Assembly (NCBI GenBank): GCA_012845835.1
Contig: JABAKD010000029.1
Location: 8,184,048-8,248,047, forward strand
DNA length: 64,000 nucleotides
Source: Undaria pinnatifida
Lineage: Eukaryota > Sar > Phaeophyceae > Laminariales > Alariaceae
Direction: 5' to 3'
Under the pieces are notes generated by a model that was not told the origin of the DNA, made no database searches, and was given only the letters and a program-made list of their open reading frames with translations. A program made the translations under genes and the position numbers. Below, one piece after another: positions 14,791 to 58,059 of the stretch (position 1 is the first letter of the stretch; each line of letters opens with the position of its first letter).

Positions 14791-15186
14791 CTAGTTCTTC
14801 GTCGCCGACTTCTTAGCCGCAGCCGCCTTACTCGCCGCCGAGAACATGGGAGACCTGTGGTTTCCCCCCTTCTCGAACAGACCGTACCCGTGCACCCGAC
14901 CACTCCTCCACTTCTCCTCGGGAGTAGCGGCCGTGCCCTTCGGCCCCGACTTGCCCGTTTTCGTGTCATAAAAGTCAGCAAAATCGTAACCCTGCGCCTT
15001 GCAGTGGGACCACTCGAAGTTGTCGTACACGAAGGGCAGCGCGTTGGTGCTAGGGTCGAACATCTTGATCATCTCCCGGTTGTTGATCGTGTTGGGGGCC
15101 GTTTTGCCGTTGAAGGTGAAGACCGGCGTGATCAGGTTCGATAGGATGCTGTACGGGAACACATCGCTGCCCCTGTGGCCATAGCA
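14791..15186 (-). CDS. tyrosinase exon 9 and stop
   Basis: 131 codons plus TAG, acceptor CTCGTAG. It encodes CYGHRGSDVFPYSILSNL, the DNFEWSHCKAQGYDF region and an Ala/Lys-rich C-terminus ending KKSATKN. Confidence 0.92.
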   Translation of the reverse strand, partial: CYGHRGSDVFPYSILSNLITPVFTFNGKTAPNTINNREMIKMFDPSTNALPFVYDNFEWSHCKAQGYDFADFYDTKTGKSGPKGTAATPEEKWRSGRVHGYGLFEKGGNHRSPMFSAASKAAAAKKSATKN

Positions 15187-18100
15187 CTACGAGACGGGGA
15201 AGGAAAACGGACGGCGGGAGGGTTAAGGGGGGAGTTGGGGTGGGGAGGGATGTACACATTCCATACATAGCCGTAGTCTCAAGACCATTGACCCTCGAAA
15301 GCCTCCAATGCCGGGACTGAGCAAGTCAGGTTTTCACCGGTTCGGGGGGGGGGGGGGGGGGGTTAGGGGATAAGGGGAGGGGGGGATTTAACCCTTACAG
15401 CACTTAATCTATATTTTTAGGGACCAACGACTCGGAATGTGAGTATATGGGATCTCGTACAGACATAGAAGGGAGGGGGGGGGGGGTAGGGGAGGGTTAA
15501 GACATTTGGCACATGAACAAAAGCCCTGTACTGAAGCCAAGTAGTTTATTTTGCCGCGGTGTGGAGAGGCTTGCGAGGGAAACAAGCTTAACATGGTCAT
15601 GTTCGACATCACCAGCACCACCACTTTCACACAAGAAAGAAAAAAAAAGCTCCATACATGAAGGAACGCCCGCCCCCCCCCCCCCCCCGCTTCTTGTGGC
15701 GTAGTTTGCCACCTACCAGGTAATAACTAGTAGGCCTGTGACTCATTTTCAGCCAACAAAAATACAGCACATCTGTAATAAGAGCTACTCGTACCTCGTC
15801 CTGCTCGGTTGAGATCTCGACGTCGTACACGACTCCGTCCATGCCGGTCCACAGTCCCGGCTCGTCGGGCCACGAGACGTCGGTGAAGGTGCCAGACATG
15901 AGCTTGAAGCTAACGAGTTATAACCGCAATAAAGTACACAACAAGAACACAGGAAGGACGGGGGCGAGGGTGGGGGAAGTGCTCGTGCGATAAGTACAAG
16001 TAAAGGCGCGCGCGACCGTCACAGCGGAAGGCAGGCAGTACAAACCATACAGGGAGGACGTGGGGTGGGGGGGGGGGGGTAGGAGCACAAAGTAAAGGGA
16101 AGCATAAATGTAGGGTAGTGAAAAATACTACCAGGTACGAACATATAACAAAAAAATCACGCTCAATGGCGTGGTACAATCAAATCACACGACATCAAAA
16201 CTCACATAAGGAGGCGTGCGCACCAGGTATGTACAATGGTGGGGTACATGAAAAAAAAAACTTGCAAGGTCGCCAGAGTACCAGTACCTTCCGAGTACCA
16301 GTCATTTCGGCCTCGAGTACCCTAGGGACTCCCGAGGGTTCAGTGTTTTCCGCTTTCGGTATCCTGGGGACTCGCGAAGACTCGGCAAATAACTGGGTCG
16401 GCTTTGAGCAATCTAGGAACTAGCGAGGACTCAGTTATTGCGGCCTTGAGTACACTAGGCACTCGCGAGGACTCAAGAGTCATTTCATTCATATTTCGGT
16501 ACCCTAGACACTCGTGTGGACTCAAATCATTGAGTACCCTAGGCACTCAGCACACAAAAAAGACTCGGGGCTCGCGGGTCAATGCCTTAAGCCCCTTTTC
16601 ACTCGGAGCGAGACTCTGACGAGCTTTAAAGGACTGTCAAATCAACATCAAATCCAAAAAAAAAAAATCAAAATCCCCTTTAAAAAATTAAAAGCACAGA
16701 ACGAAGCCAAATCACGAGGGTTTCATGCTTACACAAGGAGGCGTTCCATGGTAGGGTGCATGGACCAGAAAGTCGGATCCAGGGGAGAGCTCGACTGGGA
16801 CGACTCCCCCATGCCGACCTGCCCGTTGCAGTACTGGATAGCAAGGATCCTCTTTTCTTCTTCGGTGAACGGTCCGAAGTCATACCCGTCGGCGAACATC
16901 TCGTAAACTTGGATGTAATCGTCGCCCTGAGGACAAGACGCGAGGGGGGCAGGGAGGGAGGGAGACAGGGAGGGGATGAATGGAGAGTCGTGCTTGTTAG
17001 ATAACCAACAAGCCAAGCCGCCGATTTACCAAGTGAGGAGGCAGGGATACACATCATTGTGATGTGTGATTTTTTTCAACCATTGCACCCCAGTGACGTC
17101 ATCAGGGGGCAATCCGACCGGTATTTCGTATGGGTTAGAATTATAGGGGAAGTTCCGTCCATGGTGAAAAACACAATGACGTAGGGCACCCGGAGGAGGG
17201 GTGAAGGAGGGAGGAGAGGAAGAGAAAGTCGACAATAGCAAACAACCAAAACCTACCAGCCAAGCAACCAAACATCCAACCACCCCACCTCCCCAACCAA
17301 CCAATCAACCAACCAACCAACCAAATGTCCAACCAACCAATCAACCAAATGCCTAACGACCAACCAAGCACACCAACCTAGCCAAGGTTCAGGCTTGCAA
17401 CCGCACTTGCCCCTTGGTCACCACTCCCGCCTAATGACCACAAAAACGTCCAAAAAGACCAACAAAAAAACGCAACCAGAACAACATCCAACCAACTAAC
17501 CTAGAACTAACCTCCCCAACCAGCCGCCTCCCCGTTTCTCCCCCGACAAGCACGCGACACTACGATAGAGGAAGCACGTCACACGAGTTTTTTTTTGTTT
17601 CCGAACCACACGGCGCCCTTTAACCCCTTATAACTCCCAACCCCTCCCAATCAACTCCATGTACTAAAACCACGTACATTCGTCCTCAAAAGGGGCTTCC
17701 AGTAATGAAAGCTTTGACCCAAAATAGGAGACAAAACATTATTGTTTCAAAAAAGCACTAATCTTGTACGCCTGGGGCCCGACTGATTCCACGCCAGCCC
17801 CCCCCCTAAAAAACAGCGTTTTTCTTTAACGAACGTCTCATGGCTGCTCGACACGAGGAAGGACACAAGCGAAAACAAAGGATCCACATATATTCTTGTG
17901 TTTCAAAGGCCTATCGATCGATGGCGTCGGGGTTTCGAGGGGCACCGTATTTCAGAAGATAGATGGCTTTGAAAACGGCGATTCCGTTGAAGAAAAGTTG
18001 GGGGGGCTACTACCACCATAGGACGACTCGGCCGTGGGATTATTCCTTGGGTTGCGGCATCACTTTTCTCAAAAATGGACTTTGGAAGGAGGCACAGAGG

Positions 18101-21100
18101 CTTCCGAAGCCAAGAAATAGCCTCAGAACAGAACAAAACGGGGGTGCACCTCTATCTGTATTATTAGTAGCGTGCGTCCCCAGCAAACGAAAAAACAACA
18201 CCAAACCACCGAACCAACCTAAAACCACCCAAGAGCCTCCCCGACCGAACAAAAAAAAAAACACGTCAAACCAACCACGCAGCCAGCTCACCTCGTCAAG
18301 GTTGAGGTCGAGGCATCCGCACTGTCCCGTCGTCATCACTTCCTCCTCAGACACGTCCGGCTCAGCATAGCCTTTGCACTTGAACAGGTGGTCACGGAAC
18401 ATATCCTTACGCATCACGAACAGGTACCCGGACAGAGACAGCCTGTAGTCCTCTCCCACGATGTCCATGACCGTGTCCATGTCCTTCTGCAAAGCCACAA
18501 ACACCGGGGAAGCGTCGGGAGGCGTGGAGAGGGGGGGGGGGGATTGCATTTTAGTCCAGGCAACTTTCGTGGAAGTGACAACCACATCGTTGAATTGCGA
18601 TACTGGCGCAAAGAAACAAGAACTCTGCGACAAATACGGACACTACCCAAACCTCTCCATGGAGGCAGGGGCGGTAGCGGGGCGGGGGGGACAAATCAAG
18701 CGTGCAGAGTGCAGAAGCGGTAAGGAAATCTTATAAAGCACGCCAAGAAAAACACACAGGAGAGAGCCGGACTACATGAAAAAAAGGCGAGACAAAAGCT
18801 AGGACGAAAGGTCAGGGCCAAGACAACGGGCAAAGGGCATGGGGGTCTCACCACCTCTCTCACCCCCCCCCCCCCCCCCCCCGCGCCCTTCCCCCAAACG
18901 CTTCGTTCCGTCAAACGCTTCGTTCCGTCAAAATCGCGCTTGGTGCACGATCCGCCTGGTAAGCGAAAACCCTACGTTTTCCGTCCCAGCATTGTGGGAA
19001 TGCGAGGGTCTACGGTCTTCCGACTACGGCTATGCATGAAACGAGAAACGAGTACCCTCTAATCCCCCCCCCCCCCTACCTCTCTCAACTCCCCATCTTA
19101 CCTTGCAGTCGACGTTTCCGCCCACCCAGACGTGTACAGGCCCGTGAGGCCCGTACTGCGACCACCACGTGTAACCGTAGTACGACGTGAACTCGTCCTG
19201 CAGATTGTAGTGGCTTTGGCACCCAGGCCACGCGTCTGCTCAAAAACAAAAACCAAAGTCGGAAAATGGGAGGCGGGAGGAGGAGGAGGAGGAGGAGGAG
19301 GAGGAGGAGGAGGAGGAGGAGGAGGAGGAGGAGGAGGAGAGGAGGAGAAGGAGGAGGAGTGGGGGGGGGGAGGGGGGGGGGCGGACGGACGGAGAGGGGG
19401 GTCAGACAAAGTGATCATAAACCGAACACGCAACGGATTCAATCTGAACCCAACGACGGAACCGACTAACAAGTCGGAACTGAAATCGGAAACGTTTGCG
19501 GAAACTCCAACAGGATCCCAAAACAAAAATTCGGAAACCGAATAGGACTCGGAAACATATCGAAAACGGGTATCAAATATAAAAAATAACCATTACAAAC
19601 TGGTGCTTTCGAATAGAATACGGAATCGGATACATAATCGATAACGGAGTCGGAATCAGCATCTTTTCGAGAAGGTGCGTATCAAACATAACATAAACCC
19701 ACATAAATCGTTGCTTTGGAATAAAAAAACGGAATCCGGAACGGGATCAGCACGTACATATCAAGTTGCATACCACGTCCATCAACCTAAAAAACTGAAC
19801 TCACAGAAATCGGTGCTCAGCTCCCCGCACATCTCCCCCAGGCCGCGCGTCAGGTACCCCCGCGAGTTCACGTTCCACGGCGAGCGCATGCGGCCGTACA
19901 CGTCCGCCCCGAGCATGTCGCGGTGCTCCTGGGCCACGATGGGTATCTCCATGTAACCCCACCGACCGTCCTTCACCTATAGCATAACCGACAAATTACG
20001 TGATGAAGTTTTGGCGACCGTAGCAGGGACGTTATGAAGGGGGAGGGGGGGGGGGAGAGCGGGGGGGGGGGGAGGGGGAGGGGAAGGTGAGAGAGCGGGG
20101 GGGGGGGGGATGAGGAAATGTGGATGGGGAGATGGGAGATGGGGGGGGAGTAGTATCGGACCGGAGACAGCACGGTGGGAAGACGGCTTTCATGTAGAAA
20201 CTTAAGGTTACCGCCGAAAAGAGGCAGCACGGCGTAGTTGTGGTTGCCTTCGGTCGGACAAGGTTGTCATACACCTGGTATGTTATGAAAAAACTAAAAG
20301 ACACTCCAACTGAGAGATCGAAAGATTTCGTCGAAACTCATTTTTGTAAGCTGTGTGTCATACTCCGATCGCGCGTATTACTGGGTGTGTGTCCTCATTA
20401 GTCTAAGGATATAGGCCGGAGACTCCGATAGAACTACCTGGTAGCTTGTACCAGGGTCAACAGGGTGACGTCAATCAATCTGTGCACGAAAACTATTAAC
20501 ACAACACGTCACCCACCGTATAGAAAGTTAGATCGTCAAATCAAGCTCACAAACGTTGAACGTTGGAGTTAGTCATCTTCCGCTACGCATGACTTGGAAC
20601 ACCTGTTTCTGACCACACGAAAAACATATCACACGTGCACCACTTCTTTTGCCCTGCATGCACCGCCTACCTGGTAGTCAACGGGATCGACGCCACCAAA
20701 CCACTCGGGCGTCCAGAGGTCAGACGCGTCCGACAGCCTGCTGTAGTCGCCGTCGAAGTCCGTGTCAATCTTGGCTCCCTCGATCGTGAAGTCCCAGTAG
20801 GGGAGGCTCAACTTGGGGTTGACCAGCTGGAGACTACCCTCGAACATCATCGTGACCATGGAGTGGGTGATGCCGAACCCGATCCCGTCTGATGCCAGCG
20901 AAAACAAACAACGAACCGCACGTACGAAAAAAACGTCAAGACGAGCCCAAAAAAAAAAGAGCAAAAACTAACAAAAAAAAAGAAAAATGAGAACATCGAG
21001 AGCAAAAATGAAAACGGGGTACAAGACAGTCAGTACGGGTCCTCCGATAAGGCGGTATCCAGATATAAGGCGGTAATCGCTTGGCACGACTGGGGAGTTG

Positions 21101-24100
21101 CACTAGTAACCCGGAATGAATAAGGCGGGTTTCCCCTATAAGGCGGTCATAGTGTTCTACCACACCACCGCATTACTGGGGGAACCCTATATAGTGTTAT
21201 ATAGTGCTGTACCTGATACCAGCTGCCTGGGACGTGAATAATTAAACACGAACGCAGCCTGTTGCTTTTTCACTGCGAAAAATGTCCTACTCTTACTACA
21301 TACCTGATACCCTTTAACGCTGGTAGTATACAACACTTCCCATGCGTTATGGAAAACAAAAAAAACGATGCAGTCATCAAGGAGTTAACCCCCCCTTCAG
21401 AGCCCCGAATTCCCTCTCTATACTAACTTCAAGTAAATGTGTCCAGTCGTGAAGGGGTTCAAGACAACAAAAAGAAAAGAAAAAAAACTCTGTGAGTACG
21501 AGTCACCAGGCGTTTAATTGCGCACGTACGTGCAAGGTTTTCAGATTTGCACGTGAACTCAATACTGCCCCTGCCGACCTCGAGAGCAGACCTCGACCGC
21601 CCCCCAAAGGGTTGGGGTTGGGGTTAGTTAGTCTGGGGTCGGGTTGGTCTGGTCAGCGCAACCGTCGTTTTGTGCGGACCTGCACATAGGGAGGCGCGAT
21701 ACATAAATCGCTATTGAATTTGCTGTACGTACGTGCAAATCTAAAAAACCTTGTACGACGTACGTGCAACTTCAAAGGGGGCCCAGTACGAGTACGTATG
21801 TATGTACAAAAAAAACATTTGAAAAAAAAACTTCGAAAAAACACTCCACCATTGCAAAGATGACCACAGCAGTTGATCTATATTGTAAAAAAAAATACAC
21901 TCCGCCAGCTATCAGATCGAAGATTTCATGTCGTCAAAACTCATCTTTGCAAGCTGTGTGTGATACTCCGATCGCGCGCATTACTGGTTGTGTGTCCTCA
22001 TCAAAGACAAGGGTCGGTCACTCCCCTTTCTATATACACGAGGATGTCTAAACCCGTTACCTACCGTGGAGATGGTCGCAGTTGATGTCGGACGCGCCGA
22101 CCTGGTGGAACATGTCGATCGCCCACACGTCCAGGTAGTGCTCGCCGTAGAGCACTTGCCCTTCTTCGGTGGGCACATCCCACAACACCTGGTTTCATAT
22201 GTAACAGAAGGGAGGGGGGTTAATTCGTAAATCATTCTGTTTGCTTTGTGTATCCTCCAGTGGATGGGGAAAAATAGAAAGATCAAGTCAACGGGTGGGT
22301 TTGATAATTATATAAACTTATTCTACGAACGTCAGAGAGGTCGACAAACTTGAAACTGTTTTATAAACAAATATTTCAAGGACGTCAGCCGTGAGTTCGA
22401 CGAATTTCGGGTCAACACTCATCTTTGCAAGCTGCGTTGTTGGTGCTTGTAATATACTGTATGGGTGAGTTTTTTATTGGGAGGGGTCCTATTTGCTTTA
22501 AAATACATAGACTAAAGTCTATATGTTTTGTTTTTCTCCACTATAGTCTAATGGTTAGTGTTGGTATTTTACTGTAGGTGGGAAATTTTGAGCTAGATCT
22601 AACACTAAATTATACCTGGTACCTGGTATCCATTTTATAAATCTATTGCTACTGCTGTAGTTTCCACTATGCTGCTCTATGATATGTACGGTACTCGTAA
22701 GTGTTTTTTTTTTGTTTTCCCCCCCCGCTTTATTATTTGCCAATCTGCGTAATACATCGATATTATGTTTTCAGTATATTTGTTTCGCCGTTTGTTTCGA
22801 GATTCGTAGAGGCGATGATGATCTCAAAGCAGCCTGCACATAAGAGCATCGATCGACCACAAGTGAGGCTCTGAACAAATACGACTTCAACTATGAAATA
22901 CTGGTTGGTCCCTTAGTCTGTGGAGCACCCCACAACACCTAAAATTCCACATCATGTGACGACGACAACGACAAAAACGCAAGTAAGTCACAGAGCAGCT
23001 TGCAAAGATAAGCAGATCCCAAAGCAGCCTGCACATAAGAGCATCGATCGACCACAATTAGGCTTAAGTCTCATGTGAGGCTCTGAAAAAATACGACGTC
23101 AACTATGAAATACTAGTTGGTCCCTTAGTCTGTAGAGCACCCCATAACACCTGAAATTCCACATCATGTGACGACGAATACGACAAAAACGCGAGTACCT
23201 GGTAAGTCACAGCAGCTTGCATAGAAAAGCGAAGGGCCGACCTAACATGCTCATTTCACACCATGTGATGACAAAACGGTCACTCTACCAAGCAGCATGC
23301 AAAGCTAACTAAAGAACCGACTCAACATGCGCAACCAAGAACGCAACAAAACACTACAAGCAGTACCCGTACGTACATCGTAGCTTTTCTTCAAGCAAAG
23401 CTAACCAAAGAACCGACCCAACAAGCGCAACTGAGAACGCAACAAAACAACAATAACTACAGCAGTACTCGTACGTACATGGTAGTTTTTTTTTTGTTAT
23501 TTTTCCTTTGAATCCTCCGGCGGATGGGGAAAATAAAACGCTTACGTACACTCACCAAACTTTCACACATACTTAAAAGGTGCAGAACGAGCGATTTTCA
23601 TGGCTCGTGAATCTAGGGTTTTTTTTTTTGTGTTTTTTTTTCCCCTTGCTTTTTTTCTCCTTCTCTGGGGGTGTTATTTGGTATTGACAAGAGAATGGCG
23701 TTGAAAGCGTTAAAAAGCATGTCGCTTTTGTCGGGCAAAAAACACAACAATAAAGCACATTCTCACAACTTATGATACAACAAATATATGCCAAGATTAG
23801 TTAAGTTTCGACGAAACCCTCCATCTCACAGCTATAGTTTTTTTTTTTACCTTTTCTTGAAAAAAAAACATAAAAACGACAGATCAGTTTTCGACGAAAA
23901 CCTGCCTCGATCTCACAGAGCGGTAAGTGTTATTTCTGATTATCAACCACTACGAAAAAAAAAAAAAAAAACGAACGGACGGACGAACAAACGAACGACC
24001 TATACGAAACCACGTAAAGACAAAAAACAAACGACACACACGCACGCGCCCCGATGCCAATGTTCCCAGCGCAGCTTGCAAACAAACGCAAAGGGAGCAT

Positions 24101-39100: not shown

Positions 39101-42100
39101 CGGTTGGTGTGAGGGAGTACTGCTGTACAGCAGTCGAAATCGGTTGGCAGCTCTGTGCTTCGCGCATTCTCCGCGAGCAACGGCACGACGAACCCTCGTC
39201 CCAGCGAGTTGGTGGCTTTGGGCTTAGCCGAAAGCCGCCAAAGCTATGTTCGTGGAGTTGCACTCAGCCGTGAGCCGCCAAAAAGCCACAGCAGGCGCAG
39301 CCGTTGTTAGCAGCATGGGATCGATACCGCGCGCTGCTGCCGTCGTGTGATACACGCAGCTGGCGAGCGGAACTAGGAATGTGCCACGCTGACTTGCTGC
39401 GAGAAGCAACAGCAGTGATAGCCAAGCCAGCGTCAGCGCCTTGTATGATACTGCAGTGTGGTACCTGGTATGGGTGTGTGGCCGTGTGGCCGTGTGGGTG
39501 TGTGTTTGGTGGTGGGATGAACGACGCGATCGGTTCAAAAAACACGTGTAAAACTTTTTCGACTGGGTTTTTCGGCTGGAGGATCCAGTCGAAAATCTCG
39601 AGTGTTTCGACTGGATCCGCCAGTCGGATTTCTCAGTCAAAAAAAGGTTAGTCGAAAAAGGCCTTCTTCGACTGCGTAAGAAAGCTCGATTTAGGCTTCA
39701 GTCGAAAAAGGCCGTTTTCGTCTGACAAATCCGACTGTATAGGAAATGGCCTAACAATGCGAGGGTAGTTTCTACGCTCTCATTAGACATATTTAAGCCT
39801 GACGATATGCCTATATTTTTGGCTCTAAACCAAATTAAGCCCTATCGTGTTTCAAATGTCTAAAAAAATATGCACTTGGGCACATATGCACTTGGGCACA
39901 TTTTGGCCCAAGTGCATATTTTGAAGCAAATTTCCGAGTATTTTCCAACAATCAACAGCATTTCCGACGACAAATGATCGAGGCAACGCCAACAGACACT
40001 CTGCAGCACCAGCACAGCACAACACCCACGCAGTAATTGCAACGCTCAACCTAGCAAGCCGCTAGGTGTATCCCGAACCCGGGTTAATCAACCTACGTGT
40101 ACAGCACCACCAGGAACGTTGGCGGTGGTCAGAGGCATCCCGCTCTCGTGGAGCGGGATGCCTTTACGAACTATTACTTGAAAAGGAGCCCTCGTTCATT
40201 TACGAGGATCGAGAACACACACAGCACACAACACACCACAATACAGAAACAACACAGCACAACACACAGACAACCAGCACCCCAACAGCCAACCCAACTA
40301 CAGCACAACTAGCCGGTGGCAAAAGACCCGCGAGATTCCTCCTACCCCGGCGTTCTCTGCGGTCAGAGAGCTGGGACTCTGACATCGTTCGTCGCGCGCT
40401 CGCGCTCCTGCTCTCTCGTCCTGAGGCTGTAATTTTTCGATGCAGTAGCGGCTACGGTTTGAGATAACTTTTTAAAGAGAAAGTACGGATTTAAGAGAGA
40501 GGAATTGGCTTGTACCAATCAAAATCGATTCAAGGGAGAATTCCTATTGCTTCCGAGATTTTCTCTTAAATCGAACCATTGGGAAACCACGTGGACACAC
40601 ACATCACACACACAGATTGTGTTCAGGCTGCCAGGTCGCGAGGGTAGCGTTAGTCCTTGGGTTTGTGTTATTTGTAGGGCGAGTGATGTCTTGATAATGT
40701 GAAGTTTTTTTTTTTCGTTGACTCGTGTTTTATCGGGGGTTTAAATCGATGGGATGAGAGGTTGAGGGTGTTGTGTTGAGGGTACGGTGGGAGGAAGGGG
40801 TGCAGTGTGTAAACGGGTGCGTCTTTCTTGAGTGCTAGTGCATTCGTAGCCTCGTGTTGTCCTTCTAGAAGAGGTGCGAGCATGAAACACACCTATAAAA
40901 CAACAAAACCACTACTGCTGTACCGACTTTGCGTGTCCACGTGCAAAATGTGCATCGCATGACACGACGATGATTTATTTTCCAAGCGCAGATCCACCAA
41001 AAGCGCACCACGTACTTGGGTCCACGTTCTCGCCAACCAAGAGAATGAGCGGTGTTTGGAGGTAGCCCGACGTGGCAACGCTTGCTGCGTTACGCGACAT
41101 TGAATGATACACTCTCTACGACCTCTCTACGACCTCCTACGCCATATAGTTCGGACAAGAGCGTCTCTCTCTGGCGCGCTTTCGATTTGGCTACGGTATA
41201 CGAGAATATTCTTTTAAATCGTATACCATTTTAAGAGAATATTCTCTTATACCGTAGCCGAGACGGTATAAGAGAAAGCCGGATTTAAGAGAGAGAAATT
41301 GGCTTGTACCAACCCTCTCTTAAACCGTAGCCGCTACTGTGACATATTTTTTTTGTTTGGTTTTTGTGCCCGACGTAGCGCATGGCTCTGACATCGTTCG
41401 TCGCGCGCTCGCGCTCCTGCTCTCTCGTCCTGAGGCTGTAATTTTTCGATGACACATTTTTTTTGTTTGGTTTTTGTGCCCGACGTAGCGCATGGCCGGA
41501 GCTGCTGCAGTTTACGACCCTGTTGCCTTTCCCGCGAATGCCTCACCAATGCGAGGGTGTAAATTGAACCGGGTTGATGGCCAGTCCTGCTGTGCTGCTG
41601 TACTGACTGCCACACTGAGGCACACCGAGGGCAGCAGACGCCCGCGAGGTATCCTACATATGAAACGAGTATGGAGTACGAGATATATCTAAAACTCGGC
41701 GTACGCTGATATCTAGTTATTGGGCGCTTTAGTCTATATCGCGATTTATTTGCCCGCTTCACCCGCTGTCTAAAACTCGATATCGCATTTTTACCACATC
41801 CGCCTTGGATATAAAACTCGGGTAAGCAAGAAATAACTTGCTGACAGTCCCGTACACGTATTGCGGAAAGCGCGAGAGCGTGAGTTAGCAACACTCGATG
41901 AGAAATCGACGAGCAGTGGGAGTGCTGAACCCTATGCGCGATAGAAATTGAAGGCAAGAACCGGGGGGGAGATGGTACGACACTGTGACCACGGCTTGTC
42001 CAGAAGCTGGAAAGTAGAAGCGTGCGAAAAAGAAAAAAAACAAACCAAGCATCGCACACACGTCCCACACGTCCCACGGCGTGGGCTTGACGACGTGGCT

Positions 42101-45100
42101 GCTGCTGCTGCTACTAGCTGCAGCGTCGTTAGCCCCGCGGAAATCTACGACTGCGTCCTGCATGGAGTTGGCGCCAGGTATACGAGACGTCCCCGCTCGG
42201 GCGCGTCTCGCCATGGTCTTGCGACGGCCCCACCAAAAGCGAAAAGAGCGATTGGCTTTGTCCAGAGTGGATGACGGAGGCAGCTCCGACGAAGAGCACG
42301 CGAGGCGTGTACGACTGCTGTGATACTGTTTTTCTACTACTGCTGTCAATATAGTCTAGTCTATTAATAGTGCTGCAGTAGGGAGTGCCGACCAGGACGG
42401 AATGTAAGGACTGTTTTGTAAATGTAACTGACACAGATACGGCACCTATAATCAGAAAAAATACAAGTTGGCGTTGAGAGCGTTGTGTTTTTGATTCAGA
42501 AAAATCACACCAGGCGCTCCAATCAACATATCGGTGGGAGACGGCGATTCCCCATTGCTACTCGTGCCAGAAGGACCATAACGAGCGTCAACGCCGAGTT
42601 CTCCAGGCAGCCCATCTCCAGCAGGACGAGGAGGGTCAGCCGCTGGCCGTTTCGTGCCAGTTCGCGTTTGCGCGCCAACACCATCTGCGTCGGAGGTGTA
42701 CCATCCGTCTGCGATGCAAGGCCCTGTGCCTGTGCTGTTCAAACCTGCGCCGCTGAACCCCGGTAACCCCAACGCTTGTCGGGGCTGCTGAAACGGGTCT
42801 CCTGTCCCCGCACAAGTGACGGCATTGTCATGGTGACTGCTGTCCATGTTCCGGCAAGGGCGGCGATGATGGGGCACCTCACCAGCGCGGCAGCAGACGG
42901 CAGTCTTGGTGTCGAAGCTCTCACCTATTTTTGGTTCTGACAACTAACCCTGGATCTTCCCTCCAAAAAAAAATGAAAAAATATCGCGTAGGTGGGAATT
43001 CCCACCTACGCGATATTTCGGTATGTGCGGACCACATATGGCGAAAATATCCCAACAGCCCGCGGTCGTCTAAAACTCCAGACGCATATAATTCGGCTCT
43101 AAACGACCAATATCGCGATATTTCCGAGTTTTAGATAACTCTACGAAGCACTCAATTTTTTCACCAGGTACCAGGTATTTTTCTTGACCGTTTGTTCAAG
43201 CTCGCACAGCATGGGCAGGGGAGGGTCTTGCTCGAAGTTTCCACCCACTCATGTGCTGACTCATGAGATATATCCTCGTCTTGACATTTACGTCTGGATT
43301 AGTGCAGAAATATCATAGTCTATTTTCAAGTAGTTTGATCTTTCCTCGGCTAGAGACCACTATTTCGAGTTTTAGACATGTGATTTTTTCAGAGTCAAAA
43401 TATCGAATGGCCTAGCTCTTCCACTTGGAAATACTTGAGACCTAACCTCGAGGCTTATGTTGTTTGTCGCACATCAATTCTTGAGTCTGTGGTCACACAA
43501 AGGTGCTGGAGCCCTAGGAAGATCCGAAACACCAAAAGTGAAATAAAAATTCGTCAGGGGAAATACTACGCTTTCCCGCCTAAACGCACGATAAGAAGAA
43601 GGCGCACAAGTGAAACGGTCCAAAGTGCAAACTGAACTCCATGGCCGCGGGAATCCACTCGACTACAGAATGAAGGTACCCCGTTCCCACAACTAACCAA
43701 CTCGCGGCTACAAACTACAGCGGTTGGGCTGCCTGCACCGTACGAACCGCACGGTAATCGTGAGCACAGACGAACGCGCCGGCTGTCTGGAGTGCTGTAA
43801 GAGTGACGACCCGCGGGCATGCAGTGAAACAAGAGCAATCGAAACAAAAACCACGATATAAATATCAATGATCGCCCCGCCTTCCCTAGTTATTTGACAG
43901 GTTGCAGCGCAGCTACTACGCCCGTGCCTGCGAATTGAAAATTGCGGGGGGTCGTTCCCCATGAAGGGTGTACAACTCTACCAACTCTACAAAAATCAGT
44001 GACGTAAGTAACATGTTGTACTACTGCCTCGTAAAAACCCTGAAAAGAAGACGATCACTGCTCTCGTGATGAGGGTGTGCATGCGGGTCGTGGGTCTTCG
44101 TGTGCCATCCTCCTGCTGTGGTACTCCATGGCCGCATCACCGCCTTAGCTCACTCGGCCCGCTCCTTCGCACTTGCTCTTGTTGACACTCAATTCCAATC
44201 GGTTCCCCTTCTCCCCCGTCCCCAAAAAAAAAATGCTCCACGCAGCTTGGGGTGCTGATCTGAAAAACAAAAGTTCTCGTTCAGGTAGAATTCAAACCGG
44301 TCTCTTCCCCGCCCGTCGACGGCCAGTCGCCCTCCTCCTGCGTCGTCGAATCCAGCCTACTGCCGGCGCGGTTCCCTCCAATCAAACCGAGATTGCGCCG
44401 TGGTGGCGCTCGTGGTGGCGCCTGCCTCCGCGCACGAGCATCCCGATAAAGCATTGCTGCTCCGCCGCTGCTGCCTAAAAAGACGCGCGAATCGTAGGTG
44501 ACCATGCCTAACGCACCACGTACGACCCAACTCTACGGCCACGCCTAAGCCTCGCGGCCACATGCAGCATCAAGGAGGTATCACTCCTTGGGGGTGAGTC
44601 CGGCCTTACACCCGCCAGAAAGATCCCCCCACTCGCTACAAGCCTGCTAGGGCATGCCTCGCAGCATGCCTTTCCGTGGCGGCAAGGGGAGCGGTATTGT
44701 ATAGACTAATACGCGAACGTCGTGGTGGTGATGTCCCAATGAATCTTTAGAAAATATCTTCGGTATAACACTCCCCCAAATAAGCTGCGACTCCCGAGCT
44801 CCACTCGGCCTCCCGCGGCCTCGCGGTGCTGCCATGACCCATCCGCACAGCCGCCATATGACGTGCTGGCGAAAAAACGGCCGTCGGTGCCCCACTTCGG
44901 CGAGGGGGGGGCGTAGAAATCGCCCTCCCGGGGACGGCTCGCTTGGCCCCCGGCGCGGCGGGGAACACCCGTAGTGAACAATTGCAAATCCCGCCCAGCC
45001 CGAGAGCATTGAGACCAAAGAATCGGCTGCTGCTCGCCTGTCAGGTGTATTGCTCTACGTACTGCTGCATTGCTGTAATGCTGTACTGGGTAGGTCCGTG

Positions 45101-46573
45101 GGTGGATGGTGGGTGGTGGGTGGGTGTGTGTGTGTGTGTGTGTGTGTGTGTTCTTCACATTAAACCGTTCTTCTACTCGTCGACATCCAGCACACCCAGT
45201 GTCCGTACTGATTCTTCACCCTAGAAAGATCAGCTCTGTGGTCACAAGCCACGACACAGAGATAATGCATCGTAATGCATTCGACAACGCAATGTCATGC
45301 CCTAGTACTGGGTACGACAGGCACAACATACATACGTCAGCAACAGAAATACATTGGAAGAGAGAAATACGAAATAAACAAAAACAAAAACAAAAACAAA
45401 AAAAAAACGTGGGTGGGTGGTAGATGGCGGCTCGCTTGCTCCCCGAGATGGCCGAGTATCGTCGAAAAATGAAACTCCCCCCGTCTGTTTTCTGTTTCAT
45501 ACAAAGGTCCTCAAGAACCAACTAACTCCTCAACGCGTACCAGGTGTACTGCTGTACGTACTGCTGCACTGCTGTACTGCTGCTGCTGTATGTAGTAAAG
45601 GTTTGGTCGGTGGGTGAGTTGAGCGTTCACCGCGTCGTCCGTGGTGGGGTGCGTGGGCGGTTCCGTACGTGGGAGTCACTTTTAGTCCTGTGGGAGATGA
45701 ACATTTTTTGAAGTTTGTAAAATATCGGCCTCCCGCTGGTGCTTGGGAGTACCACCGTCCCCACTGCTAGGGTTCAGGTTTAGGTTAGGGCCAGGGTTAG
45801 GGGGTGGGTTGGGTCTACGCCCGTACCTCTATCCGTGCTTTCTGCTCGCAAACAAGAACAGCCCACCGCCCCAAAGATCCGGGCGGCCAACTTGTGAGGT
45901 GCGCTCTGTTTTCTATATACTAGAAAACCTAAAAACAGATGTTTATATTTCCACCCATCTACATCCAGCACAGCCAGTGTCTGCGCTGATTCCTCATAGA
46001 CAAGCTAGCTGCACCTTCAGCGAAACGAGTGCTAGCTATAAGGCAAACCGAATCCTGCTGCACATACTGGTGCTTCTATAGAACCTACCTATTAACAGGT
46101 CAAGTATCACGACGATACTATATTTCCGCTTACAATGATTGCTACCAGGTATGCCAGAAAACGGTAAACCGTGAAAGGTATTACGACATTTCCGCCGACA
46201 AATGATTGCTATGCCAGAAAATGTGACAGACTAATCGGTGAAAAAGTAAGCAAGCTGGGTGTAAAACGAAAAATAAATGTTTTGCCGCATGATCCGCTTT
46301 GTTTTTGTTTTCCCACCTCGAGCTGGCGCATGGGCACAGAAAACACCTGAAACGACATTTTGGCATTTTGGTTTTTCGCGCGGACAGACGGACAGCAGGA
46401 CTAGACAGCTGCTGTACAATTGCTAAGATGAGCATCGACCCCATATTTGTCGAACTCACAGCTGATGTTGGTAGAGTAAATTGATAAAATATCGGCGACA
46501 GACCCTTATCGAACACAGCTGACGATTTTGATTTTAAAAAGTTCCACAAAATGTCGGAGACATATATACCGTG

Positions 46574-46642
<69 letters not shown>

Positions 46643-49104
46643 CTCACATTAACTCGCATAATCAAGTCCGTGGTCACAGATGTATACCGGTGAATACGGA
46701 TGAGACGGGCAAAAGGAAAAAAAACACAACCTATACCGGTACAAAACCTAGTTTCAGCAAAGGCACGGAACCGAACCGGGCAAGTAGTAAAAATAGTTGC
46801 TACTACTACTGCTGCCGTTACCGGTGCATATGATACACTACTTGGTGCATACCTAGTACATCACATCAAACTACTGCTACTCGGAAAAAAAAAGTTACTC
46901 GCGCACTTTTGAGTTACCCGTGCTTCTTCTTGTGGTACCTGCCTGGAAACTGCTTGATGCATACGAGTACGCGGCGCGATACTTTCTGGCAGAGAAATTA
47001 TTACAAAAATAAAAATACACTCCAGCTGTGAGATCGAATATTTTGTCGAAACTCATCTTTGCAAGCTGTGTGTGATACGTACTCCAATCGCGCGTATTAC
47101 GGTTTGTGTGTATATAGGTCGGCGACTCCCCTTGCAACTACAGTGTAGCTATCAGGGTCAACAGGGTGATGTTAGGCAGTCTGTGCGCGGAAACTATAAA
47201 ACCCGTTTCTGAGGGGGACAAAATCCGACAGCTGTGGAAGGAAATGCATCAGTTCATCAAGTGGATCCTGTAAGTCGAATATCCAGATATTATAAAAATT
47301 AAAATACACTCCAGCTGTGAGATCGAATATTTTGTCGAAACTCATCTTTGCAAGCTGTGTGTGATACTCCGATCGCGCGTATTACGGGTTGTGTATATAG
47401 GTCGGCGACTCCCCTTGCAACTACAGCAGTGTAGCTACCAGGGTCAACAGGGTGATGTTAGGCAGTCTGTGCGCGATATATATCATTGCATGGTTTGCCC
47501 AAGATAAGGCAGCAAGCATTTCCAAATTCCACATCCACAACACATGACACATCACATACATCCACTACGTCACATACCCGGTATCATCACATCACAGCTG
47601 GTGTAGAGAGTGACTACAGCAAACAGCACCCGTATTGCTGGGTAGACCCCAGAGGCAAAGTCTTGTTCGACCTGGGCAAAGTCTTGTTCGTTTACTCGTC
47701 AACCGCGGGGCGGATATCCAACCCTGGGGCGGATATCCAAAAGCGTTTGACCAAGAGTGGGATATCTTGCCTCGAGGCTGTTCTGCCGCACAGGCAAAGC
47801 ATGTCATCGCCACACGAAGCAAAACCAACACAAAATCGAACGCATAGGATAGCAGCAGCAGCACTCCAAGCCGGTAGCTCGTGCTCCTCCTCCTGCTGCT
47901 GTATGGGAACTGAATATAAATGCTCCGAGCATCAAAGGGAGACTCTCATCTGAATAGTGTTGTGTTGGCTTTCGTTTGTTGCGCAAACGTGTTCTCTACA
48001 GAGTCTACTGCTGCCGTCGTGTTGTGTTTGTTGCGCACTATGATAACTAACTGCTGCTGCTGTTGCTGCTTCAGCGTGCTACGAGTACATACAGCAGCAC
48101 TGCCGTCGAGCAACAACGCACCACAAGGCAAAGACAACAACACACAAGCACAGAAAGAAAGGAGCTGCTGCTGCTGCTGCTTGCTGCTTTTGCCGCAACA
48201 AAGACACCCACTCACTCACCTTCATTGCATCGAACATCTCATTCCTTTCGTCATCAAAGAGCGATCTGATTTCCCTCCGAACGTATCGACAGAACACGTC
48301 CACGGAAACGCTCCTGCTCACACTGTCCTCCTCACTGCTGCCGCTCCTGTTCTCAATCAGGACGATCGTGTACATAGGTTCCTTCAAGAACATAACCTCC
48401 ACCACCGACCCCTCGTACTCGCCAAGCGGAACCGTCCCATCCTCCCCACCACCAACAATCCCCGTGATCACCCACGAGTAAGTCATCCCCTCTTGAGGAG
48501 ACACCACCTCGAGGGTAGTGTCTCGGTAGGGCTCTACCAAGATCTCTCCCTCGAGCCATGGATAGCCCAAGCCGACCACATCTCCACGTCGCGTGTAGTC
48601 GTTCATCGCCACAAAGGAGAGCTCCTCCGAGGTCGCCTCCACCACCGCCGCCGTCGCCTCTGTCTCCATGACGCTCGGTCCGGCAACCTGCTCCTGCTGG
48701 GCAACAAGCTGGGAAGTCTTCGCAGATAAGCTGCCAGCGCCAATGTCCGCGCCCCCGTTACTTGTTGGGTCTATAACCGAGCTGTTCTCGCCCGCGGCGG
48801 ACAAATGGCTCCCAAGGTTCGACATGCTGAACGCGACGGACAGCGCCGTCGCTGCGACCGCAATCGTGCCCATTCGCCGCCAGGACAGCCCTTCTCTCTC
48901 CGGAGCCGCCATCGGTGAGGTTACGTGGCTGAACAGTAATTGCTGTTGCTGATCATTGCTCCTGCTGTAGTTGCTGGTACGGCGGGCATCGTACCCGGAC
49001 TCCACCCCATTGCGATCATCGTATCGAGAGTCAGGATTCTCCGCGACGGCACCGTAGGTAGCAGCCTGGCTCGGCGGCGGCGGTGACTGCCCGTCCCTTG
49101 CCAT
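14791..49104 (-). CDS. membrane-anchored tyrosinase, nine exons, 810 codons, complete
   Basis: A copper enzyme expected to oxidise phenols to quinones. Coding order on the minus strand: 49104-48220, 22188-22065, 20888-20671, 19976-19805, 19235-19102, 18486-18292, 16926-16733, 15909-15795, 15186-14791. All introns are GT-AG, and the split codons (D337, Y467, V641) are restored exactly. Residues 1-77 are a polar tail and 78-96 a hydrophobic segment, giving a type II membrane protein; a beta-like region spans about 178-275. CuA ligands are likely H323, H334 or H336, and H345, in FHQVGA, CDHLHDG and THSMVTMMFEGSLQ, followed by LPYWDFT. CuB ligands are H497 and H501 (HGPVHVWVGG) and H633 (DPTFWSMHPTMERLL). 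About 130 residues separate the CuB ligands, an unusually long insertion. I start at the ATG at 49104 because upstream in-frame codons are only TTG-type; TTTTCCACAG just 5' of it hints at a 5'UTR intron. Confidence 0.9.
15340..15365. repeat. poly-G tract in intron 8
   Basis: A run of about 19 G. Further G runs follow within 150 bp. Confidence 0.85.
15795..15909 (-). CDS. tyrosinase exon 8
   Basis: 115 nt, acceptor CTCGTTAG, donor GTACGA. It completes Val641 and encodes FKLMSGTFTDVSWPDEPG to VEISTEQDE. Confidence 0.9.
16300..16560. repeat. minisatellite in intron 7
   Basis: Five to six imperfect units of about 40-50 bp, each with a core like GAGTACCCTAGGCACTCGCG followed by AGGACTCA. They begin near 16312, 16352, 16402, 16445, 16495 and 16527. 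Confidence 0.75.
16733..16926 (-). CDS. tyrosinase exon 7 (last CuB ligand)
   Basis: 194 nt, acceptor GTCCTCAG, donor GTAAGC. It encodes GDDYIQVYEMFADGYDFG, QYCNGQVGMGESSQSS and DPTFWSMHPTMERLL. This corresponds to the DPxFxxHH block of tyrosinases, with Met-His-Pro in place of His-His. Confidence 0.92.
17230..17365. repeat. CCAA-rich simple sequence in intron 6
   Basis: Tandem AACCAACCAATC-type tetranucleotides. The minus-strand frame across it (VGWLIGWLG...) is low complexity and not needed for the gene model. Confidence 0.75.
17781..18030 (+). mobile_element. MITE-like TIR element, family M1, inside intron 6
   Basis: Starts GACTGATTCCACGCCAGCCC and ends GGGGGGGCTACTACCACC. The inner blocks CATGGCTGCTCGA and AAGGCCTATCGATCGATGGC match the other M1 copies. 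It sits in a tyrosinase intron, so the family has been active after this intron existed. Confidence 0.7.
18292..18486 (-). CDS. tyrosinase exon 6
   Basis: 195 nt (65 codons, phase 0 on both sides), acceptor GCTTTGCAG, donor GTGAGC. It encodes KDMDTVMDIVGEDYRLSLSG to CGCLDLNLDE, part of the long insertion between the CuB ligands. It joins directly to GDDYIQVYEMF. Confidence 0.87.
19102..19235 (-). CDS. tyrosinase exon 5 (CuB HxxxH)
   Basis: 134 nt, acceptor TTGAGCAG, donor GTAAGA. It encodes YAWPGCQSHYNLQDEF, YTWWSQYGPHGPVHVWVGG and NVDCK. HGPVH gives the first two CuB ligands. Confidence 0.92.
19275..19350. repeat. (GGA)n microsatellite in intron 4
   Basis: More than 20 consecutive GGA triplets, followed by G runs to about 19380. 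Confidence 0.9.
19805..19976 (-). CDS. tyrosinase exon 4
   Basis: 172 nt, acceptor CTATAG, donor GTGAGT. It encodes VKDGRWGYMEIPIVAQEHRD through GEMCGELSTDF plus the first base of Tyr467. This is the stretch between the two copper sites. Confidence 0.9.
20300..20515 (+). repeat. repeat family R1 copy in intron 3
   Basis: Contains GAGATCGAAAGATTTCGTCG, GATACTCCGATCGCGCG-type and GTACCAGGGTCAACAGGG blocks in R1 order. At the place where most copies read CTACAGTGTAGC, this copy reads CTACCTGGTAGC. Confidence 0.75.
20671..20888 (-). CDS. tyrosinase exon 3 (CuA core)
   Basis: 218 nt, acceptor GCATCAG, donor GTAGGC. It completes Asp337 and encodes GIGFGITHSMVTMMFEGSLQ, LPYWDFTIEG and WFGGVDPVDYQ. 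Its 3' end lies in a TACCAGGTA motif, so the last codon CAG and the donor GTA are both part of that 9-mer. Confidence 0.92.
21040..21155. repeat. short cluster of ATAAGGCGGT repeats
   Basis: Four copies of ATAAGGCGG(T/G) within about 110 bp of intron 2. Confidence 0.6.
21519..21772. mobile_element. TIR element in intron 2 (family M4)
   Basis: The left end reads GCACGTACGTGCAAGGTTTT then AGATTTGCACGT. The right end is its inverted copy: ACGTGCAAATCTAAAAAACC then TTGTACGACGTACGTGC. TIRs are about 45 bp with small differences, with a G-rich core. About 250 bp, non-coding. Confidence 0.65.
21889..22030 (+). repeat. repeat family R1 fragment beside exon 2
   Basis: Carries ACTCATCTTTGCAAGCTGTG and GATACTCCGATCGCGCGCAT. 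It ends about 35 bp before exon 2. Confidence 0.75.
22065..22188 (-). CDS. tyrosinase exon 2 (first CuA part)
   Basis: 124 nt with acceptor AACCAG and donor GTAGGT. It encodes VLWDVPTEEG to NCDHLH plus the first base of Asp337, and contains MFHQVGA and CDHLH. An R1 repeat copy lies immediately downstream in intron 2. Confidence 0.9.
22375..22700 (+). repeat. composite repeat: R2 block plus R14 block (tRNA-like A box)
   Basis: R2 (22375-22437) reads, on the minus strand, an ATG frame MSVDPKFVELTADVLEIF. R14 (22540-22700) contains TATAGTCTAATGGTTAGTG, very like a tRNA A box, then GAAATTTTGAGCTAGATC. The same pair occurs at 59575-59815, and R14 alone, inverted, at 53622-53795. Possibly a tRNA-derived SINE; the B box is weak. 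Confidence 0.55.
22817..23230 (+). repeat. about 200-bp tandem duplication
   Basis: 22817-23010 and 23015-23230 align through AAAGCAGCCTGCACATAAGA, GCATCGATCGACCACAA, GTTGGTCCCTTAGTCTGT and CACATCATGTGACGACGA. The second unit reads GCGAGTACCTGGTAAGTCAC where the first reads GCAAGTAAGTCAC. Confidence 0.8.
23280..23510 (+). repeat. about 110-bp tandem duplication
   Basis: Two units share GCAAAGCTAAC, AAAGAACCGAC, GAACGCAACAAAAC and CCGTACGTACAT / TCGTACGTACAT. The second unit is followed by a CCGGCGGATGGGG repeat fragment. Confidence 0.7.
25248..25722 (+). repeat. 22-bp minisatellite (about 20 units)
   Basis: Units of the form TCGTACAACTCCTTCGATTG plus two bases, with small variants. Because 22 is not a multiple of 3, all three forward frames stay open and spell the same YNSLD/VQLLRL/TTPWIAS repeat, a spurious protein. 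Confidence 0.9.
26160..26310 (+). mobile_element. TIR element, family M2, short copy
   Basis: Starts CAGTAGTGGCTACGATATAA and ends GATTTTCTCTTATATCGAGC. It shares termini and the AGTACGGAT..AAGAGA block with the M2 element at 40443. Confidence 0.5.
27150..27275 (+). repeat. short tandem duplication of about 55 bp
   Basis: CATTATTCCCGCCCAGCTTA-TTTTCGATTTTAACCTCTTG is followed at once by CATTATACCCGTCCAACTTA-TTTTCGCCTTTAACC. Confidence 0.65.
27846..28025 (+). repeat. CAGCGC minisatellite, left part of a larger dispersed repeat
   Basis: Three near-exact 24-bp units of GCAGCGCTATAGCTCAGCA, then irregular GCCGTGCCCTGC units. An inverted relative lies at 35930-36070, next to another copy of the same larger repeat (R11). 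Confidence 0.75.
28200..28630 (+). repeat. repeat R11, copy 1 (hairpin-ended)
   Basis: CAGCGC tract, GTACCAGGT block, TCTCGGTCC region, poly-C, CAAGCACACAGCACAG, AGCTCTGCACAAG and TCACGGGCCTCTTCT, closing with GCGAGCGTAGCGGGCGGC and an inverted GCCGCCCGC around a GTCA loop. Copies: 28700-29015 (+) and 35590-36070 (-). Confidence 0.7.
28700..29015 (+). repeat. repeat R11, copy 2
   Basis: Same order of blocks as copy 1, ending GCGAGCGTAGCGGGCGG and GCCGCCCACGGAGCGGAG. It lies head-to-tail behind copy 1. Confidence 0.7.
29455..29612 (-). repeat. repeat family R1 copy
   Basis: Reads GGGGAGTCGCCGACCTATAT, CTTAATGAGGACACACA, GCAAATATGAGTTTCGACG and ATCTTCGATCTCACAGC; an open frame starts MSFDEIFDLTAGMYL. 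Confidence 0.75.
30440..30580 (+). other. possible coding fragment, unrecognised
   Basis: A short open stretch ends AAKSEAAANGNRKKVADCVA then LQARLDDTAELENYYAARM before a TGA. The composition is protein-like (charged, helical) unlike nearby frames. I do not recognise the family; it may be a transposon-gene relic or an exon of something else. It lies inside the giant intron on the opposite strand to the tyrosinase. Confidence 0.25.
30713..30985 (-). other. possible coding fragment, unrecognised
   Basis: About 90 codons open on the minus strand: VVIDARVLRKVGRHIN, SRALDDEPNHLAREWLDAVY, then RIMSPKTLESVTPVVTAFVQ up to a TAG at 30710-30712. It is balanced in composition, unlike the repeat frames around it. 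No domain recognised and no clear splice sites. Confidence 0.25.
31735..31945 (+). repeat. about 110-bp tandem duplication
   Basis: Both units read TTCGTTA..TTCG/GGTTTT, ATTCGCGC, ACATCGCAA-type, GGCGCGCAAC and GACGCCGAACCACT. It directly adjoins the hairpin end of dispersed repeat D1, copy 1. Confidence 0.75.
31943..32545 (+). repeat. dispersed repeat D1, copy 1 (hairpin-end half)
   Basis: About 600 bp nearly the same as 52348-52935 and, inverted, 44085-44672. It begins with hairpin GGCATGCT-GCGA-AGCATGCC, followed by GGGTG/CACCC and CAAGGAGT-GATA-ACTCCTTG stems, then AGGCAGCAGCGGCGGAGCAG and GCGACTGAGCGTCGACGGGC. The downstream half seen in the other two copies is absent here. No intact gene. 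Confidence 0.8.
32573..32642 (+). repeat. 17-bp minisatellite
   Basis: Four units of TGACGCAGCACTTTCAA with minor changes. Confidence 0.85.
33189..33484 (+). repeat. segmental tandem duplication around a repeat insert
   Basis: The blocks ATCGGTCGGCGTTCGTACTC and GAACATACGCTTGGAAAT-CCCAAGGGTGTACGCTA appear at 33190-33272 and again at 33400-33480. Between them lies the CCCATCCGCCGGAGGA repeat (33290-33395). Confidence 0.75.
34285..34830 (+). repeat. two repeat family R1 copies in tandem
   Basis: 34285-34400 and 34588-34830 both carry TGTGAGATCGAAG-type and ACTCATCTTT / ACTTATCTTT, ACTCCGATCGCGC and GGCGACT blocks. The second runs on through GTACCAGGGTCAACAGGGTG and AGGGGGACAAAATCTGACAG. Confidence 0.75.
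35200..35270 (-). repeat. repeat R4, (CAA)n-tailed fragment
   Basis: TGTTGTTGTTGTTG precedes CAAGTCCGTGGTCACAGGAC. The same junction is at 46575-46690 and 50165-50270, and in the other orientation at 36275-36390 and 53535-53580. The common (CAA)n end suggests the 3' end of a retroposon. Confidence 0.6.
35293..35480 (-). mobile_element. tRNA-type SINE S1, headless copy
   Basis: Minus-strand body GCGGAAAGCGCGAGAGCGTG to GACCACGG-CTTGTCC-GAAGCCGG, then an A-rich tail (TTTTTTTTCACACACA on the plus strand). The tRNA-like head is missing. Confidence 0.65.
35590..36070 (-). repeat. repeat R11, copy 3 (inverted)
   Basis: Hairpin end GCGGGCGGCTCACGCCGCCCGC, then AGGCCCATGATTTGGTGCAA, GTGCAGAGCTGACTG, GTACCTGGTACATG and the CAGCGC-type tract, in reverse order to 28.2-28.6 kb. 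Confidence 0.7.
36275..36390 (+). repeat. repeat R4 with (CAA)n tail
   Basis: GGTGACCACGGACGTGACTG and a second GATCACGGACTTGATTATGC, then TTAATGTGACAAC, ending in ACAACAACAACAACAGCAAC. Confidence 0.65.
36640..36760 (+). mobile_element. SINE S1 fragment
   Basis: GCTGAACCCTATACGCGATA, GGGGGGAGAAG and TGTGACCACGGCTTGTCCAG match the 3' half of S1. Confidence 0.6.
38640..38950 (+). mobile_element. tRNA-type SINE S1, near full length
   Basis: The head has a T-arm/B box (GTGAGTTCGAATCCCCCCC) followed by GAGTGCATACTCGTATAAG. The body runs TTGACTTGCGGAAAGCGCG, GCTGAACCCTATGCGCGATA, ACCACGGCTTGTCCAGAAGC and ends GTGTGAAAAAAAAA. Order and A tail fit a tRNA-derived SINE of about 310 bp. Start is approximate. 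Confidence 0.75.
39540..39735. repeat. cluster of CAGTCGAAAA / TTTTCGACTG motifs
   Basis: About ten copies in both orientations, so the segment can fold back on itself. A looser cluster is at 38985-39070. Confidence 0.65.
39866..39923. repeat. 17-bp inverted repeat (hairpin)
   Basis: AAAATATGCACTTGGGC at 39866-39882 and its exact complement at 39907-39923. The loop contains a second ATATGCACTTGGGCAC. Confidence 0.9.
40133..40163. repeat. 13-bp perfect hairpin
   Basis: AGGCATCCCGCTC, loop TCGTG, GAGCGGGATGCCT. Confidence 0.9.
40443..41340 (+). mobile_element. 898-bp TIR element, family M2, non-coding
   Basis: The left end CAGTAGCGGCTACGGTTTGA is mirrored at the right end (CAGTAGCGGCTACGGTTTAA on the other strand). 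The uninterrupted copy of the host site at 41451 reads CGATGACACAT, so the insertion left TG on both sides. AAATTGGCTTGTACCAA-type blocks occur near both ends. A foldback with GAGAATATTCT arms (41188-41262) is nested in the right half. No transposase frame seen. Confidence 0.7.
41188..41262. mobile_element. 75-bp foldback, related to M2
   Basis: The arms GGCTACGGTATACGAGAATA and, inverted, GGCTACGGTATAAGAGAATA differ by one base over about 23 bp. It may be a minimal M2 copy nested in the larger element. Confidence 0.7.
41858..42040 (+). mobile_element. SINE S1, 5'-truncated copy with A-rich tail
   Basis: GCGGAAAGCGCGAGAGCGTG through GCTGAACCCTATGCGCGATA and CCACGGCTTGTCCAGAAGCT to an A-rich tail near 42030. 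Truncation at the head end is typical of SINE insertion. Confidence 0.75.
42452..42943 (-). other. 163-codon open frame, possible unrecognised coding fragment
   Basis: The frame is open through a GC-rich stretch: DPFQQPRQALGLPGFSGAG, TGPCIADGWYTSDADGVG, RPAGDGLPGELGVDARYG. Composition is Gly/Pro/Thr-rich and not obviously repeat-derived. I recognise no domain. The first listed codons have no clear initiator context and no splice partner is seen, so this may be chance. Confidence 0.2.
42979..43018. repeat. perfect 40-bp palindrome
   Basis: Arms AAATATCGCGTAGGTGGGAA and TTCCCACCTACGCGATATTT are exact complements with no spacer; centre AATT at 42997-43000. Related ATATCGCGATAT and TCTAAAACTCG motifs recur at 41690-41830 and 43065-43380. 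Confidence 0.95.
43452..44672 (-). repeat. dispersed repeat D1, copy 2 (about 1.2 kb)
   Basis: Inverted relative to 52348-53580. Shared blocks include GGTGCTGGAGCCCTAGGAAG, GGTTGGGCTGCCTGCACCGT, GCGGGCATGCAGTG, AACATGTTGTACTACTGCCT-type, GCCCGTCGACG and the hairpin end. No continuous reading frame. Confidence 0.85.
45032..46010 (+). repeat. two relatives of a CTGTACTGCTG / CATCCAGCAC repeat
   Basis: 45040-45085 and 45545-45600 share GTACTGCTGCA-TTGCTGTA/CTGCTGTA. 45180-45215 and 45957-45990 share ACATCCAGCACA(C/G)CCAGTGTC. Between them lie a (GT)14 tract (45122-45151) and AAAAACAAAAAC repeats. Confidence 0.5.
45766..45812. repeat. interstitial telomere-like tract (TTAGGG-type)
   Basis: CTAGGGTTCAGGTTTAGGTT then AGGGCCAGGGTTAGGGGGTG: degenerate TTAGGG units within the giant intron. 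Confidence 0.65.
46425..46475 (+). repeat. repeat family R2 copy with short frame
   Basis: ATGAGCATCGACCCCATATT and onward gives MSIDPIFVELTADVG. Confidence 0.6.
46574..46690 (-). repeat. (GTT)n microsatellite joined to R4
   Basis: More than 20 GTT triplets, then CTCACATTAACTCGCATAAT and CAAGTCCGTGGTCACAG. On the minus strand this is R4 with an expanded (AAC)n tail. Confidence 0.85.
47008..47480 (+). repeat. two head-to-tail copies of repeat R1
   Basis: 47008-47270 and 47300-47480 are close copies: CACTCCAGCTGTGAGATCGA, ACTCATCTTTGCAAGCTGTG, GGTCGGCGACTCCCCTTGCA, GGTCAACAGGGTGATGTTAG. The minus strand carries the ATG frame MSFDKIFDLTAGV in each. Confidence 0.85.
48220..49104 (-). CDS. tyrosinase exon 1: tail, membrane anchor, pre-catalytic domain
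   Basis: 295 codons ending FDAMK, then a GTGAGT donor in phase 0. The hydrophobic segment is IAVAATALSVAFSM, followed by an extracytoplasmic Ser/Ala-rich stalk. The domain from GYPWLEGEILVEPYRDTT to FCRYVRREIRSLFDDERNEM directly precedes the copper domain in this kind of tyrosinase. No other start for the downstream exons is visible, so this exon must supply the N-terminus. Confidence 0.88.
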
Positions 49105-53795: not shown

Positions 53796-53807
53796 ATAAA
53801 TTATTTT

Positions 53808-54090
53808 AAAAAAAATACACTCCAGCTGTGAGATCGAATATTTTGTCGAAACTCATCTTTGCAAGCTGTGTGCGATACTCCGATCGCGCGTATTACGGGT
53901 TGTGTGTCCTCATTAAGGATACTAACTGTATCTAGGTCGGCGACTCCCCTCGCAACTACAGTGTAGCTATCAGTGTCAACAGGGTGATGTTAGTCAGTCT
54001 GTGCGGGAAAACTATAAAACCCGTTTATGAGGTGGACAAAATCTGACAGCAAGCTGCGGAAGGAAATGCATCAGTTTATCAAGTGAATCA
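53808..54090 (+). repeat. repeat family R1, near full-length copy
   Basis: CACTCCAGCTGTGAGATCGA through GATACTCCGATCGCGCG, GGTCGGCGACTCCCCT, GTCAACAGGGTGATGTTAG, ACAAAATCTGACAGC and AAATGCATCAGTTTATCAAG. Length about 280 bp. Confidence 0.85.
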
Positions 54091-55563: not shown

Positions 55564-55571
55564 ATTTTTTA

Positions 55572-56218: not shown

Positions 56219-56334
56219 TATTATAATTTTTATAATATACCAGGTATATATTTTCAACAAGAGAATAGGATCCCTCCCATTGAAAAAACTCACCCACAAA
56301 GTATATTTTAGAAGTACCTACAACGCAGTTTAAG

Positions 56335-57236: not shown

Positions 57237-57289
57237 ACCATAACATTTGAACCCCCCGAAATCCTCAACAGATGATAGATGCTACCTGG

Positions 57290-58051: not shown

Positions 58052-58059
58052 ATTATATA

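Follow-up and report, generated by a model that had tools for sequence, protein, structure and literature searches.

First introns are reported to be longer than later ones across a wide range of eukaryotes (Bradnam and Korf 2008, PMC2518113). For Saccharina japonica, the published summary figures include a mean intron length of 1816 bp over 106,257 introns, a mean gene length of 12,489 bp, and a transposable element content of 41.76% (PMC11836290). In this study, we analyzed a stretch of 64,000 nucleotides of Undaria pinnatifida DNA (hereafter, the window) that carries a tyrosinase-type gene with a first intron of 26 kb. Similar to the general eukaryotic pattern as summarized in PMC2518113, the studied gene has its longest intron first, with 26 kb here and approximately 1.6-42.5 kb in 11 paralogues. 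Similar to S. japonica, as far as the summary figures in PMC11836290 go, the gene is rich in introns, and its 26-kb intron is approximately 14 times as long as the S. japonica mean, the mean being the only value compared. Titles and the first parts of abstracts yielded nothing on this tyrosinase intron, which does not in itself show its absence from print.

Structure of the tyrosinase gene

The nine exons lie on the minus strand, from 49104 down to 14791, and on splicing, the coordinates first described for them proved exact. The spliced coding sequence comprises 2433 nt, or 810 codons, in frame, and its sole stop codon is at the end. Exon 1 (48220-49104) encodes the N-terminus, a probable membrane anchor, and the start of the tyrosinase block (..RREIRSLFDDERNEMFDAMK). 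Intron 1 (22189-48219, minus strand) is 26,031 bp long and in phase 0, with GTGAGT as the donor and AACCAG as the acceptor. Exon 2 (22065-22188) encodes VLWDVPTEEG..CDHLH, and exon 3 (20671-20888) contains the CuA-side part of the tyrosinase domain. Exon 5 (19102-19235) includes HGPVHVWVGG, placed on the CuB side by eye, and exon 7 (16733-16926) encodes DPTFWSMHPTMERLL, which resembles the third CuB histidine region. Exons 4 (19805-19976), 6 (18292-18486), and 8 (15795-15909) were taken from the spliced model, and exon 9 (14791-15186) includes the stop codon.

All eight introns begin with GT and end with AG, as spliceosomal introns of this class do, and the reading frame is kept at every join, which bears out the eight in-frame joins of the original prediction. 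Introns 2-8 range from 569 to 1365 bp; intron 1 is 19.1 times as long as the longest of these, in line with the predicted difference of at least 19-fold. The putative start ATG is at 49104, and the frame upstream of it is open to at least 49317. From this ATG to the stop, the gene spans 34.3 kb because of the 26-kb intron. Moreover, in a codon-usage scan with training restricted to paralogues, each of the nine exons scores at least 20.6 bits.

The predicted protein

The spliced protein matches the Pfam family Tyrosinase (PF00264) over residues 317-508 (E 8.1e-10), with a score of 39.9 bits against a curated cut-off of 22.6. The central domain common to tyrosinases and type-3 copper proteins is therefore found above the PF00264 cut-off; in contrast, the N-terminal part is long and has no Pfam match above the cut-off. 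Exon 1 alone gave only a sub-threshold match, to an unrelated family, and a putative membrane anchor was placed in this exon by eye, at approximately residues 77-97. Among solved structures, 23 distinct sequences were matched at E<=0.1, comprising tyrosinases, hemocyanins, and one o-aminophenol oxidase, and the best whole-sequence match reached E 3.1e-6. The similarity to these solved tyrosinases and hemocyanins is low. On the CuA side, the protein aligns with solved tyrosinases; on the CuB side, the printed alignment pieces score below zero, and some solved tyrosinases match query positions 70-234, a stretch that takes in exon 5. The exon 7 piece scores -2.4 bits against hemocyanin, which is not significant, and a hemocyanin alignment across the exon 1/exon 2 join (7.8 bits, i-Evalue 14) is not significant by itself.

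Six histidines, assigned by eye, would be the putative copper-binding residues (CuA and CuB) of the candidate tyrosinase. Judged from its sequence, the product is probably a type-3 copper (tyrosinase-like), membrane-anchored protein. Its enzymatic role, presumed from the family, would be to oxidize phenols, with phlorotannins as a possible substrate or wounds as a possible site.

The exon 1/exon 2 junction in paralogues

The full protein was searched against the whole genome (511,146,479 bp, 68 contigs), and at least 57 matches were obtained (56 of 130 candidates were scored). Among those listed, 11 are exon-1 matches, which end at residues 295-308; they belong to the studied gene, its head-to-head neighbor on the same contig (C36, of which the window covers 8184048-8248047), and nine genes on contig C22. 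Exon 1 of the studied gene is 57% identical to that of the neighbor over residues 148-302. When one C22 exon 2 was used as the query, 14 exon-2 matches were listed, three of which (C22 996,897, C22 1,053,233, and C36 4,280,681) have no listed exon 1. On C22, positions 200000-1300000 hold a cluster of tyrosinase-like paralogues, at least nine of which have both exons, along with two exon-2 matches for which no exon 1 was listed.

In the neighbor, exon 1 ends with ATGAAG/GTATGG and exon 2 starts with CAG/GTGCTCTGGGATG, giving DAMK/VLWDV, the same junction as in the studied gene and likewise in phase 0. The in-phase join FDAMK/VLWDV that had been proposed, the one risky point of the gene model, thus recurs in the neighboring paralogue. 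In three C22 genes read by letter, the intron is also in phase 0 and lies two codons earlier (..NA/MVIMWEV); the site of intron 1 is therefore near-identical, not identical, across the family.

These observations bear on whether exon 1 at 48-49 kb derives from a different or broken tyrosinase copy, with the gene at 14.8-22.2 kb possessing a first exon of its own that escaped detection. The absence of an above-threshold Pfam match in exon 1 alone would fit such an origin. However, the junction equals that of the neighbor exactly in protein and phase, and all 11 listed exon-1 matches are followed by an exon 2 in the same orientation. Furthermore, a tblastn search of the window for a second exon 1 (E<=10) was negative, the only match beyond the gene's own exons being at 359-460 (E 6.8); the original prediction had called for such a check for an alternative 5' exon. 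On the tblastn search, the neighbor's junction, and the exon order of the paralogues, we rejected the idea that exon 1 comes from another gene and consider a separate copy very improbable. One gene with an intron 1 of approximately 26 kb, as first proposed, is the best reading, supported by the neighbor and by the exon order in the 11 paralogues.

The neighbor carries an extra phase-0 intron of 6,946 bp (about G000:C36:8298915-8305860, from a letter-level reading), which splits exon 2 at ..KFHQ/IGAS.. and of which 42% matches the other genomic sequence compared. The same site is uninterrupted in the studied gene and in the three C22 paralogues read; for this reason, an intron gain in the neighbor is likely, with loss elsewhere as the alternative.

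Length of the first intron across the family

In five genes, the splice sites were chosen by eye at the letter level, which gave first introns of 26,031 bp in the studied gene, 42,534 bp in the neighbor, and 5,987, 11,341, and 2,245 bp in the three C22 genes. For six further C22 genes, the match ends indicate approximately 1.6, 6.9, 2.9, 10.8, 4.9, and 25.5 kb. Intron 1 thus exceeds 10 kb in five of the 11 genes, and its length differs by approximately 27-fold among them, with extremes of about 1.6 and 42.5 kb. In the C22 gene C22c, the gap after intron 1 is approximately 7.1 kb versus 2.2 kb for intron 1; the longest intron is therefore not the first in every paralogue. The long first intron occupies the same site in the neighbor. 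Large and very variable first introns are a trait of the family, and the single studied gene is therefore not the anomaly.

Repeat content of intron 1

Repeats were identified as matches of at least 50 bp to approximately 180 kb of other genomic sequence and to the rest of the window, and all percentages are lower bounds. For intron 1, the matched share is at least 39.7%, or at least 31.6% when matches within the window are excluded. With within-window matches included, introns 2-8 pooled show a minimum of 24.9% (4.7-34.3% for single introns), compared with 62.9% in the upstream flank and 11.0% in the downstream one. Intron 1 therefore carries repeats but is no outlier. The repeat argument for its growth is modest because the short introns reach 34.3% and the upstream flank 62.9%, and because 60% of intron 1 has no match in the approximately 180 kb and the rest of the window.

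Within intron 1, a repeat-rich block lies at 43142-44689; its segment 43640-44632 recurs in inverted form at 52393-53386 (approximately 1 kb) and, over a shorter length of approximately 0.55 kb, at 31987-32534. A dispersed repeat at 46991-47476 is covered by as many as 30 overlapping matches from the sequence compared, and a related family, with copies 66-67% identical, is also present in the short introns 2 and 3. Tandem arrays include one with a 22-bp unit (25243-25720) and a run of TTG (46575-46642). Intron 1 of the neighbor contains three copies of the 277-bp repeat at 45131-45407, and their identity of approximately 98.5-99.6% indicates that this repeat spread recently.

Such near-identical repeats in both C36 introns could cause assembly errors, and the length of intron 1 might then be an artefact of collapsed, expanded, or misjoined repeats. 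However, the contig around the gene is 15.8 Mb long, large first introns are found at C22 loci as well, and the window contains no N. We regard an assembly artefact as very improbable.

Repeats also occur in the window outside the gene. An imperfect C-rich repeat of approximately 1 kb (CCCCCCT, period 7/15) at 50907-51928, approximately 1.8 kb upstream of exon 1, produces long minus-strand open frames rich in glycine and arginine. The region 53800-62484 is dense in dispersed and inverted repeats, where the arms of one pair are 99% complementary and one family is related to copies at 20.3, 21.9, 34.3, and 47 kb. A retroelement was suspected for the repeat at 52.4-53.4 kb and a neighboring minus-strand open reading frame (ORF), but the two ORFs scanned gave no Pfam match, and they were left unclassified.

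Coding, RNA, and regulatory content of intron 1

Intron 1 contains 65 ORFs of at least 90 amino acids, of which 62 were scanned, and none matched Pfam at E<=0.01. The three ORFs outside the scan were 25214-25573 and 25496-25804, located within or extending into the tandem repeat at 25.2-25.7 kb, and 47920-48219, adjacent to exon 1. Rfam at the gathering threshold gave no match over 14500-49500, and a tRNA scan of the window found none. No nested gene was recognized in the intron. Outside the gene, a plus-strand open frame at 411-1493 encodes a bromodomain (PF00439, E 4.8e-9) and is probably part of another gene.

The paralogue-trained codon scan detected seven stretches of at least 15 bits in intron 1, all on the minus strand; two reach at least 20 bits, with a maximum of 20.6. 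Among ten Markov controls, two had one such stretch each (21.2 and 16.7 bits) and eight had none. With the gene's own exons included in the training, no stretch in intron 1 reached 20 bits. Two of the seven (27850-28032 and 46577-46645) overlap tandem repeats, and the five others, at 37470-44954, lie outside tandem repeats, with no scanned ORF matching Pfam. Moreover, no colinear block between the two C36 first introns was seen by eye among the matches listed, which look like dispersed repeats.

A nested gene, a non-coding RNA gene, or a selected regulatory region in intron 1 would be compatible with the growth of a shared intron. The seven weak coding-like stretches on one strand and the large first introns of both C36 genes point in this direction, and long first introns are widespread, their motif content being given in PMC2518113 as a partial explanation in Arabidopsis. 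In contrast, the Pfam, Rfam, and tRNA scans were empty, the matches between the C36 introns resemble dispersed repeats, and length varies approximately 27-fold among the paralogues, so that we give such content a small chance. A narrower proposal is that selection keeps intron 1 large in the two head-to-head genes (26 and 42.5 kb), where it would delay transcription or serve as a transcription unit, regulatory or nested and non-coding, for a wound- or polyphenol-related oxidase; this is highly unlikely.

Probable growth of a shared first intron

Collectively, the locus is very probably one nine-exon gene with a 26-kb first intron at an old, shared site, which grew by repeats and non-coding DNA and is removed by ordinary splicing. 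The first intron would have been present at an old phase-0 site, common to the paralogues within two codons, and would have grown as dispersed repeats and further non-coding DNA accumulated, more in some copies than in others. Repeat insertion may have driven this growth, and the intron would have no regulatory role. The long pre-mRNA would be transcribed and spliced as modeled, by ordinary GT-AG removal.

The gene model is clean, and automatic annotation could easily cut such a gene in two. The 26-kb intron is real but fairly ordinary, and it is not a new kind of thing. The 11 paralogues, with their approximately 27-fold spread in first-intron length, form a usable set for studying intron growth.
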